Made by a program: the position numbers and the translations under genes
Assembly (NCBI RefSeq): GCF_009497155.1
Contig: NZ_WINI01000011.1
Span: 1-47,653 of the forward strand
Direction: 5' to 3'
Length of the DNA: 47,653 bases
Source: Glaciimonas soli
Lineage (GTDB): Bacteria > Pseudomonadota > Gammaproteobacteria > Burkholderiales > Burkholderiaceae_D
The notes under the pieces: generated by a model
What the model was told of the DNA's origin: nothing
What the model saw: the letters and a program-made list of their open reading frames with translations, nothing else
Databases searched by the model: none
Shown here: one piece after another, positions 3,716-44,680 of the stretch
How the letters are laid out: each line of letters begins with the position of its first letter
Numbering within the stretch: the stretch's first letter is position 1

Positions 3716-3749
3716 ATGCCTACTCCAGAAAATAAAGTTAAGTGCTTCC

Positions 3750-3832
3750 AAACCATTGTTTAGATTAAGCGTATCGACAAAGACAGTACGGCTGTACGAC
3801 TAGGAGATACGACAACATCTAAACGATGTTTT
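3750..3832. repeat. Structured intergenic element, copy 1
   Basis: A 16-base arm (3750-3765) pairs with 3817-3832 with two mismatches. Inside it, CGTATC (3770-3775) pairs with GATACG (3806-3811). The core between them reads AGACAGTACGGCTGTACGAC followed by TAGGAG, and contains a small GTAC-loop-GTAC hairpin. The same core occurs at 12606-12633 inside an unrelated long stem. It lies between maiA and the ABC transporter gene, both on the minus strand. Function unknown; it may be an RNA structure, a terminator-like element or a non-autonomous mobile repeat. Confidence 0.75.
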
Positions 3833-3925
3833 GGGAACGCTTATTTGGATTCCCGCAAAACAGGCATCAAATTAGACCAGGCATTTTGTGCCCATGCAGG
3901 GAACATAGGAAAGAAGTAATTAATT

Positions 3926-3968
3926 AGCGCCAACAACATCACCCAAGGCATAGCCCTGGGTGTGCGCT
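3926..3968 (-). other. GC-rich hairpin downstream of maiA
   Basis: ACCCAAGGC pairs with GCCCTGGGT around a three-base loop (3941-3961), with an outer AGCGC/GCGCT helix (3926-3930 with 3964-3968). It sits about 50 bases past the maiA stop codon. There is no U-run on either strand, so it is at best a pause or Rho-type 3' end structure. The other bases between 3833 and 4020 show nothing recognisable. Confidence 0.35.
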
Positions 3969-4020
3969 ATATCGTTCGGATACAAAAGACAGTATCCGGT
4001 ACGTTTTGTGTAAGCGCTAT

Positions 4021-4692
4021 TTATGCCTCGGCGTCCGGCTGATTTTCCGGTGCTGCTCTGACAAACGCATCAAGTTGCAGACAATGCGCATAAATACGCA
4101 TCAATGTTGGCATTCCCGACAAATCACATTGTAATCGTTGTGCATTAAATAACTGCGGCACTAAGCAACAATCAGCCATGGTCGGTGTGTCACCATAACA
4201 AAATTTACCGACACGAGTGTCAGCCGCCAACTGCGCTTCCAATGCTGCCAAACCTGTTTCACACCAATGGCGATACCATTTGTTTTTGGCCTCCTCATCC
4301 ACCTTCAATTCGCGTACCAAATAACGTAGCACGCGTAAATTGTTAAGAGGATGAATGTCACAAGCAATCGACAACGCAATATTCCGTACAAAAGCGCGAT
4401 CTATCGGTGCCGACGGCAACAAGGCAACATGTGGATAGATCTCTTCCAGATATTCGATAATGGCAAGTGATTGATTCAAGGTGGAATGACTTGCCATTTT
4501 TCCAACCGCCATATCGTCGATCAACGTTGGCACTACACCATTCGGATTGAGCTGACGATATTCCGGGCTTAACTGTTCGCCGCCATTTTTTAACAAATGT
4601 ACTGGAACGGTTTCGTACGGCAAATCCTTCAGATTCAACGCTATACGCACCCGATAGGCGGCAGAACTACGAAAGTAGCTATAGAGTTTCAT
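4021..4692 (-). CDS. maiA: Maleylacetoacetate / maleylpyruvate isomerase (zeta-class GST)
   Basis: This 223-residue protein has the glutathione S-transferase fold of the zeta class. The N-terminal thioredoxin-like domain starts MKLYSYFRSSAAYRVRIALN, where family members carry an SSCS/SSAS active-site motif binding the glutathione thiol. NPNGVVPTLID and QSLAIIEYLEE are the usual glutathione-binding elements. The C-terminal helical domain has the family signature around ADCCLVPQLFNAQR. It would isomerise the cis double bond of maleylacetoacetate or maleylpyruvate, using glutathione. The FAH-family hydrolase gene lies about 100 bases upstream on the same strand, which fits consecutive steps of tyrosine or gentisate breakdown. 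Which of the two substrates is used cannot be decided here. Confidence 0.85.
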   Translation of the reverse strand: MKLYSYFRSSAAYRVRIALNLKDLPYETVPVHLLKNGGEQLSPEYRQLNPNGVVPTLIDDMAVGKMASHSTLNQSLAIIEYLEEIYPHVALLPSAPIDRAFVRNIALSIACDIHPLNNLRVLRYLVRELKVDEEAKNKWYRHWCETGLAALEAQLAADTRVGKFCYGDTPTMADCCLVPQLFNAQRLQCDLSGMPTLMRIYAHCLQLDAFVRAAPENQPDAEA

Positions 4693-4790
4693 ATCTCCTC
4701 CTATATTTTTTGTATAGTTGCATCAGCGTAGACTATCCAACTGAATTGACTAGTTTTCCTTCTGATCCGAAAAGTCTACTACTAATGCGA

Positions 4791-5477
4791 CTAAACCAGA
4801 CGTACCTTCAGTCCACTCACACCATCAACACTACCCTCAAGCACATCGCCTTTTACCACCGCAGCAACACCCGCTGGCGTGCCGGTAAAAATCAAATCGC
4901 CCGCACGTAATTCGAAGTAGGTAGAAAGATACTCGATAGTTTCTGCAATGCTCCAAATCAATTGGGCAATATCACCTTGTTGTCGCGCCTGACCGTTCAC
5001 GGCAAGTTGAATACTACCGCTGGTTTTAAGATCTGAAGAAGGATGAATCGATGAGATCGGTGCGGAGTAATCAAAACCTTTACCGGTAGACCAAGGGCGG
5101 CCTTGTTTTTTTGCCTCCCCCTGCAAATCACGGCGGGTCATGTCGAGACCAACGGCGTAACCAAAAATATGTTTTGCCGCGTCTGCTGCCAAAATATTTT
5201 TGCCGCCGCTCTTCAGAGCAACGACCAATTCAATTTCATGATGCAAATCTTGTGTGCGCGATGGATAAGGCATTTCGCCGACGCTACCACTTGCCACTGG
5301 CAAAACTGCATCGGCTGGCTTCATAAAAAAGAATGGCGCTTCACGCTCGCTATGGCCCATTTCTTTCGCATGTTCAGCGTAATTACGGCCTACACAGTAA
5401 ATGCGATGCACCGGAAAAAGTGCTTCACTACCTTCAATCGGGACAACTGCTTGCTGTGGGGGAAAGGCGAATTGCAT
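4791..5477 (-). CDS. Fumarylacetoacetate hydrolase family protein (probable fumarylpyruvate hydrolase)
   Basis: A 228-residue FAH-fold hydrolase. The conserved entry motif [16 protein letters not shown] and the metal-binding acidic stretch [11 protein letters not shown] are both present, as is the C-terminal [12 protein letters not shown] loop. At this length it matches the short bacterial acylpyruvate/fumarylpyruvate hydrolases rather than the roughly 420-residue tyrosine-pathway enzyme. Next to maiA it would cleave the isomerised product into fumarate plus pyruvate, which points to the gentisate branch (NagL/NagK-like). Other FAH-family reactions, such as oxaloacetate tautomerisation or decarboxylation, remain possible. 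The start is the ATG at 5477, preceded by CGGAGAC on the minus strand. Confidence 0.83.
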
Positions 5478-5613
5478 AAAAGTCTCCGTTATTAAACTGA
5501 GTGAGACGACTATGTTATCAGTGCGGGAAATTGCTGTAACCAGAAATATGACGTTATTTTTTTAATTTTTTCTTAATAAAACTTGCACAAAACCGGTTAT
5601 CAGCGGCAAAGCA

Positions 5614-6789
5614 TCAAACATCCTCTTTGCCAAAAAATTTCCTTAAGCGTCGCACCGCTTCTTGTAAATTTTCCATCGATGTTGCGTATGACAGGCGAAT
5701 GTAGTTAGGCGCGGTAAAAGCGCCGAAATCCAATCCGGAAACCACACTCACGCCGACTTCCTGCATGATCCCTTTGACCAGATGATCAGCATCATCAGCC
5801 AATGCGCTGCAATCCGCATAAATATAAAAGGCACCATCTGGAATTACCGGCACTTTAAAACCAAGTGCGATCAACTCTGGGACCAAAAAATCGCGACGAC
5901 GTTTAAATTCAGCCTTACGCTCTTCATAAATAGCCAGCGATGCCGGTTCAAAACAAGCCAACGCGGCATGTTGTGCGATAGATGACGCGCAAATGAATAA
6001 GTTTTGCGCCAATTTTTCGATCTGCGGCACCAGTTTTTCCGGCAAAACTAACCAGCCTAATCGCCAGCCTGTCATATTGAAATACTTGGAAAAGCTATTG
6101 ATAACGATCACATCATCACTGAGAGACAAGGCCGAGAACGGTTGAGCATCGTAAGTCAATCCTTGATAGATCTCATCCACAATGGCGAAACCATTTTTCT
6201 CGCGCACAGTAGCAAGAATTTTTGCCAACTCATCTGGCAGAATGGATGTGCCAGTTGGATTTGACGGCGATGCCAACAAAACCCCACGCGTAGCGGCGCT
6301 CCAATGTAAGCGTACCGCCTCGTCGGATAATTGAAAACGTTGCTCAGGCCCGCTGGCAATCATCTGCGCCACACCATCAAACGCCGCAACGAAATGTCGA
6401 TTGCAAGGATAAGATGGATCCGGCATCAACACTTCTGCGCCCTTCTCCACCAACGCCGCACACGCCAACAACAATGCGGCCGATGCTCCAGCCGTGACCA
6501 CGATACGTGACGGCGTAATTTCCAATCCATACACACTTCTGTAGTGATCGGAAATCGCAGCACGCAAAGCGGGCAAACCGGTAGCAGAGGTGTACTGCAT
6601 TTTGCCGTCATTCATAGCCTGCGTCGCCGCGGCAACGACCAATGGCGGCGCAGTAAAATCGGGTTCGCCAATACCCATATGAATAATATGCCGGCCTTGC
6701 TGCTCCAAAGCGGCAGCCATTTTTGCCAATTCCATGACATGGAACGGCGCAATATTGTCGAGGCGAGAAGCGAGGTTGGCTAAATTCAT
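5614..6789 (-). CDS. PLP-dependent aminotransferase, class I (aspartate aminotransferase family)
   Basis: A 391-residue fold-type I aminotransferase. The cofactor lysine is in SFSKYFNMTGWRLGW (about residue 234). The phosphate/ring-binding region ASPSNPTGT and the C-terminal arginine loop NYIRLSYA are also present, as is the N-terminal substrate motif MGIGEPDF. It transfers an amino group between an amino acid and a 2-oxo acid in the cytoplasm. The sequence does not separate aspartate, aromatic or alanine-type specificity. It stands alone between a palindromic repeat upstream and the FAH gene downstream. Confidence 0.85.
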   Translation of the reverse strand: MNLANLASRLDNIAPFHVMELAKMAAALEQQGRHIIHMGIGEPDFTAPPLVVAAATQAMNDGKMQYTSATGLPALRAAISDHYRSVYGLEITPSRIVVTAGASAALLLACAALVEKGAEVLMPDPSYPCNRHFVAAFDGVAQMIASGPEQRFQLSDEAVRLHWSAATRGVLLASPSNPTGTSILPDELAKILATVREKNGFAIVDEIYQGLTYDAQPFSALSLSDDVIVINSFSKYFNMTGWRLGWLVLPEKLVPQIEKLAQNLFICASSIAQHAALACFEPASLAIYEERKAEFKRRRDFLVPELIALGFKVPVIPDGAFYIYADCSALADDADHLVKGIMQEVGVSVVSGLDFGAFTAPNYIRLSYATSMENLQEAVRRLRKFFGKEDV

Positions 6790-6827
6790 AGGGAAATGTA
6801 GTGATAATTTTTGAATAAATAATGTCT

Positions 6828-6937
6828 AATAACCGATTGAAAAATCACCTCGTCATTCCCGCGAACGCGGAAATCCATCTTATGCAACTTGGATCCCCGC
6901 GTTCGCGGGGACGGCGATAATTTTCAAATCGGTTATT
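6828..6937. repeat. Palindromic intergenic repeat with nested CCCGCGAACGCGG arms
   Basis: The outer arms AATAACCGATTGAAAA and its complement (near 6922-6937) enclose two inverted copies of a TCATTCCCGCGAACGCGG-type sequence at about 6852-6875 and 6890-6912. This CCCGCGAACGCGG word is a familiar dispersed repeat of beta- and gammaproteobacterial genomes. The element lies between nusB and the aminotransferase and could serve as a 3' end structure for nusB. There is no clean U-run, so a transposable or REP-type origin is more likely. Confidence 0.65.
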
Positions 6938-6964
6938 TTGAATTAGCTATGCATAAAACGATGC

Positions 6965-7444
6965 TTAAACGCGATGCTTTGCGTTGATCTCTGTCTGCCG
7001 CACTTTCGCAGCAAATTTATCCAGCACACCGTTAACATATTTATGACCATCAATTCCACCAAATGACTTAGTCAATTCAACGGCTTCATTGATCACAACT
7101 TTGTACGGAATTTCCAGATGGTTCTGCAACTCAAATGCACCGATCAATAACGCCGCATGCTCAATAGGCGATAGTTCCGTAATTTTGCGGTCTATCAACG
7201 GTGCCAATTCCGCACGTAGCGACGTTGCATCTTTTACCGCACCAAACAACAAGGCATTGAAATGCTCCACATCGGCTTTATCAAAGCCATGCGCTTCACG
7301 GATGTTGGCATGAATGTCGTGCACATCTTCATTGCTCAGCAACCATTGATATAAACCTTGCAGCGCAAACTCACGCGACCGGTGACGAGGTGTGCGGTTC
7401 TTGCTTGGATTGGCATGGGTAGATTGCGTTTTGTTAGTCATCAT
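6965..7444 (-). CDS. nusB: Transcription antitermination protein NusB
   Basis: A 159-residue all-helical NusB. The conserved N-terminal stretch [18 protein letters not shown] and the C-terminal motif [18 protein letters not shown] followed by KYVNGVLDK are diagnostic. With NusE (S10) it binds the boxA RNA and supports antitermination of rRNA operons. The N-terminus carries a charged extension of about 20 residues before the family core. It lies 11 bases after ribH, in the ribBA-ribH-nusB order common in proteobacteria. Two adjacent ATG codons (7444 and 7441) are possible starts. Confidence 0.95.
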
Positions 7445-7455
7445 TTTTTCCGTTT

Positions 7456-7947
7456 TTACTCTTCTTCGTCACCAGTTGACTCAGCCAATTCTTCCAGTGC
7501 GATAGACAAATTTGCCATTTCCACTGCTACACGCGCGGCATCAACGCCTTTTTCTTTCATGCGTACTTCTGCTTGTTCATCATTCTCAGTCGTCAAGACT
7601 GCATTGGCGATCGGAATACCGAATTCCAAACCGACTTCACTGATGCCGCGACCTGATTCGTTCGAGACTAATTCAAAGTGATAAGTCTCTCCGCGAATCA
7701 CTGCGCCCAATGCCACTAACGCATCAAATTGCATGGTTTCTGCCAATTTTTGCAATGCCAGCGGAATTTCCAACGCGCCAGGAACGGTGACATGCAAGAT
7801 ATCGGCATCGTCTACGCCCAGATGTTGTAATTCGCCTAAACAAGCTGACAATAAACCGTGGCAAACATCTTCATTAAAACGCGCTTGCACAATACCGATA
7901 CGCAAACCTGCACCGTTGAGGTTAGTTTCATAAGTTCCGACTGTCAT
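7456..7947 (-). CDS. ribH: 6,7-dimethyl-8-ribityllumazine synthase
   Basis: The 163-residue lumazine synthase condenses 5-amino-6-ribitylaminouracil with 3,4-dihydroxy-2-butanone 4-phosphate, the penultimate step of riboflavin synthesis. Visible landmarks are [12 protein letters not shown] at the N-terminus, [14 protein letters not shown], and the substrate loop [16 protein letters not shown] with its catalytic histidine. An in-frame ATG at 8001 would add 18 residues without family resemblance. The ATG at 7947 is preceded by AAAGGAAAG, so it was chosen. The C-terminus ends in an acidic tail. It sits between ribBA and nusB and is probably co-transcribed with them. Confidence 0.95.
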
Positions 7948-8062
7948 GGCTTTCCTTTTTGCGCAGCGCGCCTTAGTTACAACATTTTTTACAACAAACA
8001 ATTACAACAAATTATGAATCGTTGCGGGCACGGCTTGCCGCACCCTTACCTTATTTAGACTT

Positions 8063-8116
8063 CTTTCGGAGCGTAGCGACCAGCACAATATTGTGTCGCG
8101 CAATCGGTTCCGAAAG
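8063..8116. other. Two-helix intergenic structure between ribBA and ribH
   Basis: CTTTCGGA (8063-8070) pairs perfectly with TCCGAAAG (8109-8116). Inside, GCGAC (8076-8080) pairs with GTCGC (8095-8099) over a loop containing CACAATATTGTG. It begins eight bases after the ribBA stop codon and lies about 115 bases before ribH. There is no U-run on either side, so it is not a classical terminator. It could be an mRNA-processing or stability structure. Confidence 0.45.
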
Positions 8117-8123
8117 CAGTGCA

Positions 8124-9236
8124 TTAACTATTCGGTTTATTTTGATAGCCAGTTACTTCTAACTCAAAACCCGCCATCGAAGGCATTTTTCTTGGACTTG
8201 CCAGCAACTTCATTTTGCCGACGCCTAAATCTTTCAGAATTTGAGCACCAATACCGTAAGTGCGTAAATCAACCCGCGGAGCCGGTGCTTTAATCCCTTT
8301 ATCGCATGCATCGAGTGCTGAAAACTTATCGAAAATCTGTTCTGCCGATTGCTCGCAATTGAGCAACACCACAACTCCACACGGCGAGGCCGCAATTGCC
8401 TGCAAAGCCGATGCCATATTCCAGGAGTGATTAGTCGCTTCAGTTTCCAACAAATCCAGAACCGATACTGGTTGATGCACACGCACCAGCGTTTCTACAT
8501 CCGCAGTTGGTGTGCCATGCACCAGCGCCAAATGCGCACTGCCGCTAGGCGTATCGCGGTAAGCAATGGTTCTGAAACTGCCTTGTGCAGTTTGGGTGGT
8601 GCGTTCAGCCAAACGCTCAATCACGCTTTCATGCTGGCTTCGATAGTGAATCAAATCGGCAATCGTGCCGACTTTTAAATTATGCTCTTTTGAAAATTCC
8701 AGCAAATCTGGCAAACGTGCCATAGTGCCGTCTTCCTTCAGGATTTCGCAAATCACTGACGCTGGTGTCAAACCTGCCATGTGAGTTAAATCACAGCCCG
8801 CCTCAGTATGACCAGCACGCATCAACACGCCGCCCTTTTTGGCTTTGAGCGGGAAAATATGGCCGGGCTGAACGATGTCGCTCGGCTTAGCATTTTTTGC
8901 TACCGCAACCTGGATAGTGCGGGCACGGTCTGCCGCTGAAATACCGGTTGTAACACCTTCTGCGGCTTCAATCGAGACCGTGAAATTGGTGCCATAAGCG
9001 GTGCCATTACGACTGGTCATCATGCTCAAATCCAGCAAGTCACAACGCTCTTCAGTCAGCGTCAGACAAACCAGGCCACGCGCATGTTTCACCATAAAGT
9101 TGATTGCTTCCGGCGTCACGAAATCGGCGGCCAGGACTAAATCGCCTTCATTTTCTCTATCTTCTTCATCGACCAGTATCACCATACGACCGGCGCGTAA
9201 TTCAGCAATGATTTCTTCGGTTGTTGCAATTGACAT
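8124..9236 (-). CDS. ribBA: RibBA-type protein: active DHBP synthase fused to a degenerate GTP cyclohydrolase II domain
   Basis: This 370-residue protein has two halves. Residues 1-205 are 3,4-dihydroxy-2-butanone 4-phosphate synthase, with the acidic metal loop [11 protein letters not shown] and the [11 protein letters not shown] motif intact. Residues about 210-365 align with GTP cyclohydrolase II, but the zinc-binding cysteines (the CxCG motif of RibA) are absent: the matching stretch reads [17 protein letters not shown]. The second half is therefore probably not a working cyclohydrolase, and a separate ribA is expected elsewhere. Such fusions are common in Burkholderiales. An upstream ATG at 9266 exists, but MSIATTEEI at 9236 matches the family start. 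It begins the ribBA-ribH-nusB group. Confidence 0.92.
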
Positions 9237-9334
9237 GTTTTTGCCTTGAAATAAGAAAACGATCAAGCTTGGGTTAAAGCCATCTCGCCATTTTAATAGA
9301 TTTCATTATTCGATAAATGCCGTCAGAAACCAGA

Positions 9335-10336
9335 TTACGCAGCCAATGGTTGCATTCTTGCCATCGCCTCTAGCAATAATGCCGGATCACCCAAAGCCAG
9401 TTTTTTAGAATCAGACAAAGCCTGTCTGTAACTTCTGGCACCCGGCAATCCCGCCATCAAACCTAACATATGGCGCGTAATACTGTTTAAACGCAGACCT
9501 TTACCATCATTGCCATGCAAGGCCAATTGTTGACGGATATACGGCATCATCGCTTGTAATATTTCTGCGCGCGACTTCGGCGTAATTTCATGATCATCGT
9601 AATATCGCCCATCGAAATCGGCCATCAAATACGGATTATGATAAGCCTCACGACCAAGCATGACACCATCGACATGCTGCAAGTGGAGGTCGATTTCTGC
9701 AGTAGTTTTAATCGCCCCATTGATGATGATTTCCAGCGCAGGAAAATCACGTTTCAATTGATAGGCAAAATCGTATTTCAAAGGCGGTATTTCGCGATTT
9801 TCTTTCGGGCTAAGGCCCTTCAGAATCGCGTTGCGCGCATGAACAATAAACGTCTTGCAACCAGCATCAGCTATCGTTCCAACAAAATCTCTGACGAAGT
9901 CGTAATGCTCAATTTCATCAATGCCGACGCGATGTTTGACGGTGACATCAATATCAACCGCATCGCGCATCGCCTTGACACCGTCAGCCACAAGGTTCGC
10001 TTCAGCCATCAGACAAGCACCGAAGGCACCTTTTTGCACGCGCTCAGATGGGCAACCGCAATTCAAATTGATTTCGTCGTAGCCCCATTGTTCGCCAAGT
10101 TTTGCACTTTTTGCCAGATCAGCAGGTTCGCTGCCGCCGAGTTGTAATGCGACGGGATGCTCTTCATCATTAAAATCCAGATGGCGCGGCACATCACCAT
10201 GCAACAAGGCACCGGTGGTCACCATCTCGGTGTACAGCCAGGTATGGCGCGTGATTTGACGGTGGAACATGCGGCAATGCCGATCTGTCCAATCCATCAT
10301 CGGGGCAACGCTAATTGTTCGTTTGCGATAAGTCAT
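9335..10336 (-). CDS. dusA: tRNA-dihydrouridine synthase A
   Basis: A 333-residue flavoenzyme that reduces uridine 20/20a in the D-loop of tRNA. The FMN-barrel start ISVAPMMDWTDRHCR, the catalytic-cysteine motif NLNCGCPSERVQKGAFGACL (cysteine near residue 94), and KHRVGID all match DusA rather than DusB or DusC, as does the C-terminal RHMLGL region. It lies about 100 bases downstream of ribBA in position, on the same strand. About 210 bases, including the typA terminator, separate it from typA. It is probably its own transcription unit. Confidence 0.93.
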   Translation of the reverse strand: MTYRKRTISVAPMMDWTDRHCRMFHRQITRHTWLYTEMVTTGALLHGDVPRHLDFNDEEHPVALQLGGSEPADLAKSAKLGEQWGYDEINLNCGCPSERVQKGAFGACLMAEANLVADGVKAMRDAVDIDVTVKHRVGIDEIEHYDFVRDFVGTIADAGCKTFIVHARNAILKGLSPKENREIPPLKYDFAYQLKRDFPALEIIINGAIKTTAEIDLHLQHVDGVMLGREAYHNPYLMADFDGRYYDDHEITPKSRAEILQAMMPYIRQQLALHGNDGKGLRLNSITRHMLGLMAGLPGARSYRQALSDSKKLALGDPALLLEAMARMQPLAA

Positions 10337-10433
10337 TTGCAGAAGTTCACACTGAAGTTGAAGCTAAAGTCAAAGCTGGCTATAACAAAATGAAATGGGG
10401 TTTTTCCACATTCATTCTTTACTGAAATGCCAT

Positions 10434-10485
10434 GAAAAAACCCGTCAATATTGCAAAGCACATTGGCCTCACAAGATTGACGGGT
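10434..10485 (-). terminator. Intrinsic terminator of typA
   Basis: On the minus strand, ACCCGTCAAT (10476-10485 region) pairs over a 26-base loop with ATTGACGGGT (10440-10449), followed at once by a run of six T (10435-10440). It begins about 65 bases after the typA stop codon. Confidence 0.8.
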
Positions 10486-10548
10486 CGGTACTACTGAATA
10501 TGTCTAACCTGCGATAGTCATTCGCACGCCAACAACATCAAGCAACAA

Positions 10549-12387
10549 TTATGCGTCGCGCGATGCTTTTTTACGATCGTTTTCTTTCAGGTGACGCTTA
10601 CGCAGACGGATGCTTTTTGGTGTGACTTCAACCAATTCATCATCAGCAATAAACTCTACCGCGTATTCCAATGACATCTCGATTGGCGGTACCAAACGTA
10701 CCGCTTCGTCAGTACCTGATGAACGCACGTTAGTCAATTGCTTACCTTTAATCGGGTTCACAACCAAATCGTTGTCACGTGAGTGAATACCGATGATCAT
10801 GCCTTCATACACTGGATCGTTATGGCTAACAAACATACGACCGCGATCTTGCAATTTCCAAATCGCATAAGCTACAGCAGCGCCATCATCTTGGGAAATC
10901 AGAACACCATTGCGACGCACACCCAAGTCACCGCTCTTGCTGTTATCAACTGGTGCGTAGTCATCGAACACGTGGCTCATCAAACCTGTACCACGGGTTA
11001 ACGTCATGAATTCGCCCTGGAAGCCGATCAGACCACGTGCTGGAATACGGTATTCCAAACGTGTACGGCCTTTACCATCCGATTCCATGTTTTGCAAATC
11101 GCCGCGACGTTTGCCCAACTCTTCCATCACGCCGCCTTGATTTTCTTCTTCAACGTCAACGCTCAGCATTTCAAATGGCTCATTACGTACGCCATTGATT
11201 TCTTTGAATACAACCTGAGGGCGCGACACAGCCAATTCAAAGCCTTCACGACGCATGTTTTCAATCAAAATTGTCAGATGCAACTCACCACGACCTGAAA
11301 CTTTGTATGTTGAATCGTTATCTGGATCTTGCTCAACGCGCAATGCCATATTCGCCCGCAATTCTTTTTCCAGGCGATCTCTGATCTGACGCGTAGTAAC
11401 AAACTTACCTTCGCGGCCTGCCAACGGCGAACTGTTAACCATAAAGTTCATCGACAAAGTCGGCTCATCGATTTTCAACATCGGCAAACCATTTGGTGCA
11501 TCTGGTGCGCAAATCGTGCTACCGATACTCAAATCTTCGATACCGTTAATCAGCACGATATCGCCAGCTTGCGCTTCGTCAACCAAAACGCGATCCAGAC
11601 CCTGGAATGTCAATACTTGGTTAACCTTGGCTTTTTTCGGCGTATCTTCAGGACCATTCATGAAGACCACTTGTTGCAAAGCTTTAACGCGACCAGCAAG
11701 AATACGGCCAACGCCAATTTTTCCGACGTACGATGAGTATTCCAACGAAGTGATTTGCAATTGCAAAGGTGCATCAGGATCATCTTCACGTGCTGGAACG
11801 TGTTCCAGAATAGCGTCAAACAAAGGCTCCATATTTCCTGAGCGAACGTCTTCAGTCAAACCTGCATAACCGCTCAAACCTGATGCGTAAATGATTGGGA
11901 AATCCAATTGCTCATCAGTTGCGCCGAGCTTGTCGAACAATTCAAAAGTCGCGTTCACTGCCCATTCCGGACGTGCATTAGGACGATCAACCTTGTTCAC
12001 GACAACGATAGGTTTCAGGCCTAGCGCCAATGCTTTACGTGTCACGAAACGCGTTTGTGGCATCGGGCCTTCTTGCGCATCAACCAGCAATAGAACACTA
12101 TCAACCATCGACAATACACGTTCCACTTCACCGCCAAAGTCAGCATGGCCCGGGGTGTCAACGATGTTGATGTGCGTGCCTTTGTATTCGACTGCGCAGT
12201 TCTTCGACAAAATCGTGATACCGCGTTCTTTTTCGATATCGTTCGAATCCATCACGCGAGCATCGACTTGTTGGTTGTCGCGGAAAGTACCAGATTGACG
12301 CAATAATTGGTCAACTAGCGTGGTTTTGCCATGGTCAACGTGGGCAATAATGGCGATGTTGCGGATAGCGCGTTTTGAGTTTGACAT
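10549..12387 (-). CDS. typA: Ribosome-associated translational GTPase TypA/BipA
   Basis: The 612-residue GTPase has the elongation-factor G-type layout without domain IV. G1 is [10 protein letters not shown], switch I carries [10 protein letters not shown]3 is [12 protein letters not shown] and G4 is NKVDRP. Then come beta-barrel, EF-G III/V-like and the BipA-specific C-terminal domains ([17 protein letters not shown]). It binds ribosomes and supports 50S assembly and growth under stress or cold. It follows truB on the same strand after a 436-base gap containing a structured repeat, and ends at a clear intrinsic terminator. Confidence 0.97.
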
Positions 12388-12547
12388 ATTAAATATGGAA
12401 GATTGAGGAATTCAGTAATGAACAACGGAACAACGAATGTGGCGAGTGACGGTGTAAATAACGTTACAAATAAGTCGCAACAATATCGTCACACGATGTG
12501 TTGCGCGAAGTTGTCACAATCAAACAAACCTGCCGCTGTTCAAAAAA

Positions 12548-12685
12548 CCCGGGTAATCCGGTAAATAAGTAAGGCCGCATAGCTGTTTTGATTAGGCGCC
12601 CCCGACGCAGACAGTACGCCTGTACGACTAGGAGGGGCAACAATGTATAAACAGCTATGTGGGCTTACTTACAGCGGAATTCGGG
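12548..12685. repeat. Structured intergenic element, copy 2
   Basis: A 23-base arm (12566-12588) pairs with 12649-12671 with about two mismatches. It is extended outward by CCCGGGTAATCCG (12548-12560) with CGGAATTCGGG (12675-12685). Inside, GCCCC (12598-12602) pairs with GGGGC (12634-12638). The core, AGACAGTACGCCTGTACGAC then TAGGAG, matches copy 1 at 3781-3806 with one base change, while both helices have wholly different sequences. It sits between truB and typA, about 160 bases before the typA start. The rest of the 12388-12823 gap shows no gene. Confidence 0.78.
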
Positions 12686-23456: not shown

Positions 23457-23474
23457 CCCTATGCAAACATAGGG
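23457..23474 (-). promoter_or_regulatory. Hairpin covering the uraH ribosome-binding site
   Basis: CCCTATG and CATAGGG form a seven-base stem with a four-base loop. On the uraH transcript the 3' arm contains the AGGG Shine-Dalgarno sequence. If folded, it would hide the site and reduce initiation. Confidence 0.4.
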
Positions 23475-23564
23475 CTTACGCAAAATTGCCCCAGCACGGC
23501 GTGCCGAGCGCGGCCTGTACGACATGCTGGAACGGCGGAGCTGGGGCGATTTTGCGTAAGCCCT
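23471..23564. repeat. 94-base palindromic element between uraH and puuE (MITE-like)
   Basis: The 25-base arms 23471-23495 and 23540-23564 are inverted copies with a single difference (a G-U pair if transcribed). The 44-base centre contains nested GC-rich hairpins and the 11-mer GCCTGTACGAC (23513-23523). That 11-mer also appears in the core of the structured element at 12618-12628. Size and symmetry resemble small non-autonomous mobile repeats. It abuts the uraH ribosome-site hairpin. Confidence 0.75.
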
Positions 23565-23743
23565 AAAACAGTTAAAAACCACCAACGCGCAAATGATATA
23601 CCTCAGAATATAAGTGAATATAAGACGAAACATATATTAATAATGGTGCCGTAACGACATAATCCGATCAAACAAACATTCGCCAAGGCAACAAATAGCA
23701 GGTATTACGCGAATGAGATTCCGAGACAAAGAAAGAAGTTGAT

Positions 23744-26915: not shown

Positions 26916-27098
26916 ATGCCAACATTCAACGTCCAATTATTTGAAGGCCGCACCCCGGAACAAAAACGCGCTTTCGTCCAGGCTATCACCGAAGTCACCT
27001 GCAAAACATTAGATTGTGGGCCGGAATCTGTTGACATCATCATTTCCGAAGTCAAACGTGAGAATTGGGCGACTGCTGGAAAGTTGTGGTCGGAATAA
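26916..27098 (+). CDS. 4-oxalocrotonate tautomerase family enzyme
   Basis: A 60-residue tautomerase. After removal of Met the catalytic proline is N-terminal (PTFNVQLFEGRTPEQKRAF), and the family arginine is in the same stretch. Such enzymes form hexamers and tautomerise 2-hydroxymuconate-like or other keto-enol acids. Coming 41 bases after the class II aldolase, with GGAGA before the ATG, it is probably co-translated with it. Part of its middle (27006-27033) recurs with one change at 44653-44680. Confidence 0.9.
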   Translation: MPTFNVQLFEGRTPEQKRAFVQAITEVTCKTLDCGPESVDIIISEVKRENWATAGKLWSE

Positions 27099-43752: not shown

Positions 43753-44659
43753 CAGACTTTACTTGTCGGCACAGCGTTGCTTGTTGCACCTGCTGCTCCT
43801 GCTGCTCAGTGGTAGCGCGTGCTGCCAAACGACAGTGATATACCCCTCCTCAGCTTCGAGTATCGATATCCGCCACAATGATTTGATCGAACTGCTCTCC
43901 ACTTCACTGGAAAAAACCAAGCGCGAGTACGGCGCATACAGCGTCGGCCCATCCAAATTAAAAATGAATGAAGCACGTTCGCTGGTGGAATTAAAACGGG
44001 GGGATTCTGTTACGGTGGTTTGGAGTCCAACCTCAGAAGAGTTGGAAAAGAAATACATTGCTATCCGCATCCCATTGCGCAAAGGATTGTTAGGATTACG
44101 TATCTCGTTAATCGATAAAAAAAAACAAAGCAGCCTGGAACGAGTTAACACCATTACCGACCTCAAAAAACTCAGTCTGGGCATGGGTATAGGCTGGGTG
44201 GATTTAAGTGTGTTGAAAGCCAATGAGATCAATGTTGTCACTGCCCATTATGATGCGCTATTCACCATGACCGCACACGACCGCTTTGATCTTTTTCCGC
44301 GCGGGATTAACGAGGTGTTTAATGAATATGATCAACGCCGCCAGATTTATCCGAATCTGGCAGTGGAGCAAAATTTATTGATTTACTATCCCTGGCCGTA
44401 TTATTTTTTCGTGAATAAAAATAACCCGCAATTGGCCGAGCGAATTCGACTTGGTCTGGAACGCATGATCGATGACGGCACATTTAACCGGATTTTCATG
44501 AAATACAACGGCGAAGCGATACGACGCGCCAACCTCAGTCACCGACACATCATTCAATTGAAAAACCCATTTTTACCCAGGCAAACCCCGACTGATGCCC
44601 GATATTGGCTTTTCCCTTCACTGATAAAGAGCGATGTGATCAAGCAGACACTACATTAG
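43745..44659 (+). CDS. Periplasmic solute-binding-like protein, probable sensor partner of the hybrid kinase
   Basis: About 304 residues with a signal peptide (MINRLYLSAQRCLLHLL... SGSACCQ), then a fold like family-3 solute-binding proteins. No ABC permease or ATPase genes are nearby, so a sensory rather than transport role is likely. The start lies inside the kinase gene (43733 or 43745), giving a short overlap and probable coupling. The last few residues (after LFPSLIKSD) are coded by a stretch whose stop codon lies within a 28-base match to the tautomerase gene. The native end may therefore have been replaced by recombination. Confidence 0.75.
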   Translation: MINRLYLSAQRCLLHLLLLLLSGSACCQTTVIYPSSASSIDIRHNDLIELLSTSLEKTKREYGAYSVGPSKLKMNEARSLVELKRGDSVTVVWSPTSEELEKKYIAIRIPLRKGLLGLRISLIDKKKQSSLERVNTITDLKKLSLGMGIGWVDLSVLKANEINVVTAHYDALFTMTAHDRFDLFPRGINEVFNEYDQRRQIYPNLAVEQNLLIYYPWPYYFFVNKNNPQLAERIRLGLERMIDDGTFNRIFMKYNGEAIRRANLSHRHIIQLKNPFLPRQTPTDARYWLFPSLIKSDVIKQTLH

Positions 44660-44680
44660 ATTGTGGACCGGAATCTGTTG
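44653..44680 (+). pseudogene. Short fragment matching the middle of the tautomerase gene
   Basis: These 28 bases match 27006-27033 in the 4-oxalocrotonate tautomerase gene with one difference, a synonymous G to A. They would encode TLDCGPESV in the same frame. No homology extends to either side. The fragment supplies the TAG that ends the upstream binding-protein gene. Confidence 0.7.

Follow-up and report, generated by a model that had tools for sequence, protein, structure and literature searches.

The window, by which we mean the whole 47,653-base stretch of Glaciimonas soli contig NZ_WINI01000011.1 that was analysed, carries on its forward strand two hairpin-forming intergenic elements, here called A and B, which lie upstream of minus-strand genes for an ABC transporter and for TypA/BipA, respectively. 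A third and degenerate copy, element C, lies further along. These elements and their parts are given below with the scores of two models, namely R1, a structure model built on copies from the window genome, and R2, a core model of 42 rows.

3739-3843, forward strand: element A, 105 bases, a full hairpin with TA at both ends (R1 101.4 bits, E 1.1e-22; R2 72.1 bits)
3781-3806, forward strand: conserved core of element A, an exact pattern match
3770-3775 and 3806-3811, forward strand: inner helix CGTATC/GATACG of element A, from the RNA fold
12566-12671, forward strand: element B, 106 bases, a full hairpin with TA at both ends (R1 111.8 bits, E 2.6e-25; R2 80.3 bits)
12609-12634, forward strand: conserved core of element B, an exact pattern match
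12598-12602 and 12634-12638, forward strand: inner helix GCCCC/GGGGC of element B, from the sequence and the RNA fold
12566-12588, forward strand: left arm of element B, an inverted repeat of 23 nt, 91% complementary
12649-12671, forward strand: right arm of element B, partner of the left-arm inverted repeat
23469-23566, forward strand: element C, degenerate third copy (R1 48.3 bits, E 2.2e-9; R2 28.4 bits, E 6.8e-5)

The matched pair of structures, which a preliminary description of the window had pointed out, is confirmed. A 20-base core occurs exactly at 3781-3800 and 12609-12628 on the forward strand and nowhere else in the window, and it is followed in both copies by TAGGAG (3801-3806 and 12629-12634); with up to three mismatches allowed, the core pattern has two matches where 0.01 is expected, a number reached in none of 100 shuffles. 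The inner helices and the long outer stems lie where they had been placed, and the RNA folds of the two copies (-39.5 kcal/mol for element A) have z values of -6.84 and -6.54 relative to shuffles. The limits first given to the structures (3750-3832 and 12548-12685) are replaced by the model-fitted edges listed above. The outer stems pair as described, but they are not unrelated in sequence, since both elements start with TAAGT and end with CTTA and their arms (TAAGTGCTTCC... and TAAGTAAGGCC...) are members of a graded arm set within one family. Nor are there two copies only: element C combines arms of the TAGGRCTTACGCAAAA subfamily with an eroded core and was missed by the whole-genome R1 search of the window genome, and its arm pattern TAGGGCTTACGCAAAA has 90 places in the genome at two or fewer mismatches, whereas the reversed pattern has 7. 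The idea of an insertion sequence with TAGGRCTTACGCAAAA arms at its ends was dropped on the strength of the one pair spaced at about 0.8 kb, at locus L296, which consists of two decayed elements around an ordinary gene, without a transposase.

In the window genome as a whole, the core pattern at three or fewer mismatches was found at 11 places (10 forward and 1 reverse) and the reversed control pattern at one, and an alignment of 10 of those places gave two-sided changes in 17 of 35 predicted pairs. The R1 search returned at least 120 rows at E<=1 and at least 77 distinct places at E<=1e-3, the best E-value being 2.5e-25 (model rows included), which goes well beyond chance matches of the core; copy numbers from such whole-genome model searches are lower bounds. 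In a set of 55 matches, taken from 54 loci at E<=5e-10, 91.4% of cells pair and 27 of the 35 pairs show two-sided changes. The covariation score of this set is 0.461, against 0.186 (standard deviation 0.007) for shuffles, none of 500 of which reached it, and at most 0.089 for slid versions, a score favoured by the fitting of the alignment to the structure. The compensatory pairing proposed from the two window copies is thus real and strong among homologues. The consensus reads roughly CNAGGCG-nnn-CGACGCAGRCAGTACG-NNN-GTACGGCAAGG-nGnnn-CAACRACG with a GTAC/GTAC tip, and under the end fit of the model 29 of 70 copies have TA/TA ends and 9 have CA/TA.

The statement that no named family fits holds for Rfam, which gave no match at the gathering score for the window and related loci (at E up to 10, just two snoRNA matches far under the cut-off), but not for the literature. 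By its letters, the core belongs to the Correia repeat-enclosed element known from Neisseria, whose published landmarks are TCAGGACAA, ends of the form AACAAAAA or AAATTTAAA and lengths of 104-108 bases for the short form or 153-157 bases (PMC2649163). A blastn search of a plasmid collection with the family consensus matched 9 records, two of which are gonococcal chromosomes with 32 places each, and R2, which has no row labelled Neisseria and takes rows L043, L048 and L066 from other families of the order, found 67 places in the N. gonorrhoeae chromosome CP119142 at E<=1e-3, the best E-value being 1.1e-12. Gonococcal genomes are said in the literature to average 127 Correia elements, and R2 therefore recovers about half. 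One gonococcal copy, which starts with TATAGTGGATTAACAAAAATCAGGACAAGG and ends with TTTTTGTTAATCCACTATA, has both the landmark TCAGGACAA and the Correia ends, and a second element with Correia landmarks was found in genome G204.

The window DNA was further compared with four other species of the genus. In all four, the site of element B beside typA (12565/12672) is empty, so that element B is an insertion: the congeners read GGTAAATGCAGCGG or GGAAAATGCAACGG, that is, GGTAAA-TG-CAGCGG or close variants, where the window has GGTAAA-[TA...TA]-CAGCGG, and in each of them the conserved block begins at 12672, which the right edge of element B abuts. Neither R1 nor R2 had a match in the eight congener loci covering sites A and B. 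The TA at both element ends and the clean empty site would suit the TA target of Correia elements, for which CA sites have also been reported (PMC2649163), but the congeners have TG. The two most alike copies in the genome, at L015 and L019, are 95.3% identical in unrelated flanks (58% and 48% in global alignment). Of the two readings first proposed, that of a dispersed repeat family holds, with its many places in the genome and the empty site in the congeners. As to the other, selection on RNA structure, the pairing and the mismatch excess described below agree with selection for folding of a single strand, be it RNA or DNA, and do not show a regulatory RNA.

We therefore consider, with a probability of about 0.85, that both structures arose by insertion of a mobile but non-autonomous Correia-type hairpin, i.e. 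a miniature inverted-repeat element. The analysis establishes that the elements belong to the family by their core, that they are dispersed, that insertion took place at a TA-like site, that the stems covary and that the strand polarity described below exists in this genome. Several observations weigh against the conclusion. The mobilising transposase was not found: the IS630-type transposase family DDE_3 has no match at E<=1e-5 in the window genome, and 11 of the 37 copy-bearing genomes lack a Y1 transposase (PF01797, E<=1e-5). The congeners have TG where the TA of the element lies, so that the exact target duplication is presumed; the junction at site A is too diverged from the congeners to be placed; and the neighbouring stretch 12423-12565 also differs (143 bases compared with about 70 in the congeners), which means that the length gap at site B is only partly the element. 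The 26-base inverted repeats of Correia elements are absent from the window copies, which have other inverted repeats, and in the gonococcus 34 of 67 copies agree with the skew, i.e. there is no polarity. The mobilising enzyme of Correia elements is described as unknown (PMC2649163). In the window genome, an IS630-type enzyme acting in trans may have been lost.

The polarity consists in the core lying on the strand of negative GC skew, which is C-rich, at 70 of 74 copies in the window genome (p 5e-12 against the 59% bias of coding length). The orientation was typed at 77 places, 74 of which are on contigs with sampled skew, the three on contig C26 being left out; the skew was taken from 20 kb stretches and, in other genomes, each place was given the sign of the sample closest to it. 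Gene direction does not explain the bias, since the polarity persists where genes run opposite: in negative-skew samples 59% of genes are on the minus strand, compared with an element polarity of 95%, and where both neighbours run along the core 16 of 17 copies still follow the skew (this analysis covers 69 of 70 loci, L141 being left out as it overlaps the L031 stretch). Neighbouring genes could be called for 68 copies: in 34 of them the genes on both sides oppose the core strand, in 17 both follow it, and 17 are mixed. The position upstream of minus-strand genes, which is correct for both full copies in the window, is therefore not general in the family. The same direction of polarity is seen in a closed genome of the same family (15/21, p 0.08) and in a congener (19/27, p 0.05), together 34/48 (p 0.0055), a sample in which tandem copies are not independent. 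Inversion of Correia elements in the gonococcus has been published, as cited in PMC10969869, and such inversion could erase the polarity there. The polarity is one of two features left unexplained, the other being the mismatch excess in the stems described below.

A bias of this kind brings to mind single-strand DNA transposons of the repetitive extragenic palindrome (REP) or IS200 kind, moved at the replication fork by a Y1 enzyme such as the REP-associated tyrosine transposase (RAYT). The 70/74 polarity, the hairpin with conserved unpaired bases and the one Y1 gene of the window genome speak for such a transposon, which we nonetheless hold to be very improbable: the 11 copy-bearing genomes without Y1 include all four congeners, which have 6-25 copies each as lower bounds (one of the 11, G011, is 73% complete), the target is probably TA, and on the usual reading of GC skew the C-rich strand that bears the core is not the lagging-strand template. 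An orientation selected along the replichore, as in polar chromosome motifs of the FtsK orienting polar sequence (KOPS) kind, would likewise account for the 70/74 and for the weaker bias of the same direction in the two other genomes, 34/48. However, the gonococcus lacks the bias, presence is patchy (at least 37 of 100 relatives), copy number runs from 1 to dozens, sites are empty in relatives, and 105 bases is far longer than motifs of this kind, so that this explanation seems to us just as improbable as the former.

The stems also carry a possible signature of a single strand. On the core strand, mismatches in the outer stem are G-U in 165 cases and A-C in 85, in 116 of 127 copies. The count was repeated on copies picked by core letters alone, which avoids the bias of a structure model, and gave 93 G-U against 36 A-C in 72 of 76 copies, and 34 against 9 in 22 of 25 copies when similar arms were removed; another count, which took in parts of the inner loops, gave 144 to 62. 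The excess was not significant in 16 copies from the window genome with a core score of at least 24/28 (20 to 11, p 0.15) or in 11 copies taken by the core pattern alone (14 to 9). A narrow-window count (7 G-U against 6 A-C in 42 copies) was discarded as it clipped most of the stem. The excess fits what is expected of RNA or single-strand DNA alike and does not show a regulatory RNA. Mutation bias is a further conceivable cause, although the C-rich position of the core strand in the window genome should act in the opposite direction.

Strong covariation and the excess of G-U over A-C on the core strand are also what one would look for in a cis-acting RNA or small RNA family that is kept by selection at each site and has spread only secondarily. 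In addition, six genomes, all from one family of the class, have a Correia-type hairpin in the same intergenic place, after the same gene at about 1500-1600 of loci L270, L273, L277, L278, L279 and L287. The end of this gene reads as what we take to be PstB, and the next gene presumably encodes PhoU; the hairpin could be an old copy kept for function. Such an RNA family is nevertheless unlikely, in view of the typA site empty in four of four congeners, the core running against both flanking genes in 34 of 68 copies and with them in only 17, and the recent copies in unrelated flanks. Promoters at the element ends count among the traits of Correia elements; in both window intergenic regions a simple consensus scan for sigma-70-like sites found none, which is weak evidence in the same direction.

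The family reaches well outside the genus. R1 had matches at E<=1e-3 in at least 37 of 100 relatives, and R2 at E<=1e-5 in at least 29 of 398 genomes of a phylum sample, these 29 being the window genome itself, 2 members of its family, 10 genomes from other families of the order, 10 from the class and 6 from one more distant family. A strict core pattern, run against 84,980 genomes of named species, matched 73 stretches, namely 49 in Janthinobacterium, 9 in Herbaspirillum, 5 in one Burkholderiaceae bin, 2 in Solimicrobium, 2 in Clostridia bins and one each in Glaciimonas, Undibacterium, Herminiimonas, a Comamonadaceae bin, an uncultured beta bin and Oxalobacteraceae CAVE-383; phage records gave no match. 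The arms of window-genome copies are shared with Glaciimonas immobilis. There are 5 places at E<=1e-3 (best 3.0e-16) in the first Clostridia bin and one partial place in the second, and 4 of 147 genomes around the first, itself included, have places at E<=1e-5; as these genomes are bins, misassignment is possible. That unrelated palindromes share the core by chance or convergence is suggested by its short length only and can practically be dismissed, with E-values down to 2.5e-25 in the window genome, 1.1e-12 in the gonococcus and 3.0e-16 in the Clostridia bin. Row L245 of R2 is the Clostridia element itself, yet the same genome has four other places, which are independent of it. In Janthinobacterium sp. 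344 (L194, 5957-6657) four copies in the same orientation are 217-228 bases apart, and further tandem pairs were seen at L221, L243, L250 and L251.

Descriptions in the literature present the Correia element as unique to Neisseria, a restriction contradicted by the sequence matches in the window genome, its relatives, the phylum sample and the Clostridia bins. Searches of the open-access literature for Correia-like elements outside Neisseria, Oxalobacteraceae repeats, a Herbaspirillum miniature inverted-repeat transposable element (MITE) and Janthinobacterium REP sequences gave no relevant report (a Polaromonas MITE cited in PMC10969869 is outside the comparison). Among the papers listed, those matching the core letters were unrelated by title, and those on Correia and Burkholderia in the open-access literature concerned the meningococcus by title.

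With TA ends, a long outer stem of drifting yet complementary arms, a short inner helix and unpaired conserved stretches, the hairpin would be moved by an enzyme supplied in trans that recognises the folded single strand of core sense. The conserved unpaired core bases, which persist from genus to genus and even in Clostridia, seem to be what is recognised; of the arms, only pairing would be required. The polarity may reflect a link of insertion or survival with the replication fork. A transcript crossing the element would fold to a hairpin cut by RNase III, as published for Neisseria, where Correia transcripts are bound or cut by this enzyme (PMC2649163); the effect on the host is most likely of this Correia-like kind. 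It is tempting to speculate that Correia is one host-adapted branch of an old cross-phylum hairpin family that moves or survives through the single-stranded core sense at the replication fork, a view that we hold as tentative and rather doubtful. If true, the core would be the recognised part and the arms replaceable if paired, and describing the element by its 26-base ends, as is usual, would overlook most of the family.

Correia elements have long been viewed as a peculiarity of Neisseria that rewires the expression of nearby genes. Relatives in harmless and readily handled genera, among them Janthinobacterium and Herbaspirillum, allow the mechanism to be studied outside pathogens, and a comparison of hosts may point to the enzyme. 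Models of how these elements move are newly constrained by the polarity and by the G-U excess, and the core model is usable for annotating intergenic DNA across many genomes. Two other repeats were seen in the window. Another palindromic repeat, CGTCATTCCCGCG...CGCGGGGACG, lies at about 6804-6958, has several dozen matches in the genome and presumably resembles the neisserial dRS3 repeat, and a 28-base direct repeat of 96% identity lies at 27006-27033 and 44653-44680, 17.6 kb apart.

Among known systems, the enterobacterial repetitive intergenic consensus (ERIC) and other bacterial miniature inverted-repeat elements are likewise non-autonomous, hairpin-forming and intergenic (PMC10969869), but have another core, and no search for shared sequence was made. 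REP/REPIN-RAYT systems share with the present family short dispersed intergenic palindromes and a possible single-strand link, and differ in that Y1 is absent here from 11 of 37 genomes with copies, the ends are TA and the element is about three times longer than REP sequences. The closest likeness is to the Correia elements, also called CREE or NEMIS, in the core and internal loops, the length (105-106 bases here and 104-108 for the short form, PMC2649163), the probable TA target, the hairpin pairing and the intergenic, multicopy and non-coding nature. The differences are that the 26-base arms TATAGTGGATTAA... are replaced here by other, drifting arms, that the 153-157 base long form bearing a site for integration host factor (IHF) is not found among the matches listed, that strand polarity is present in the window genome and not in the gonococcus, and that the host family is another.

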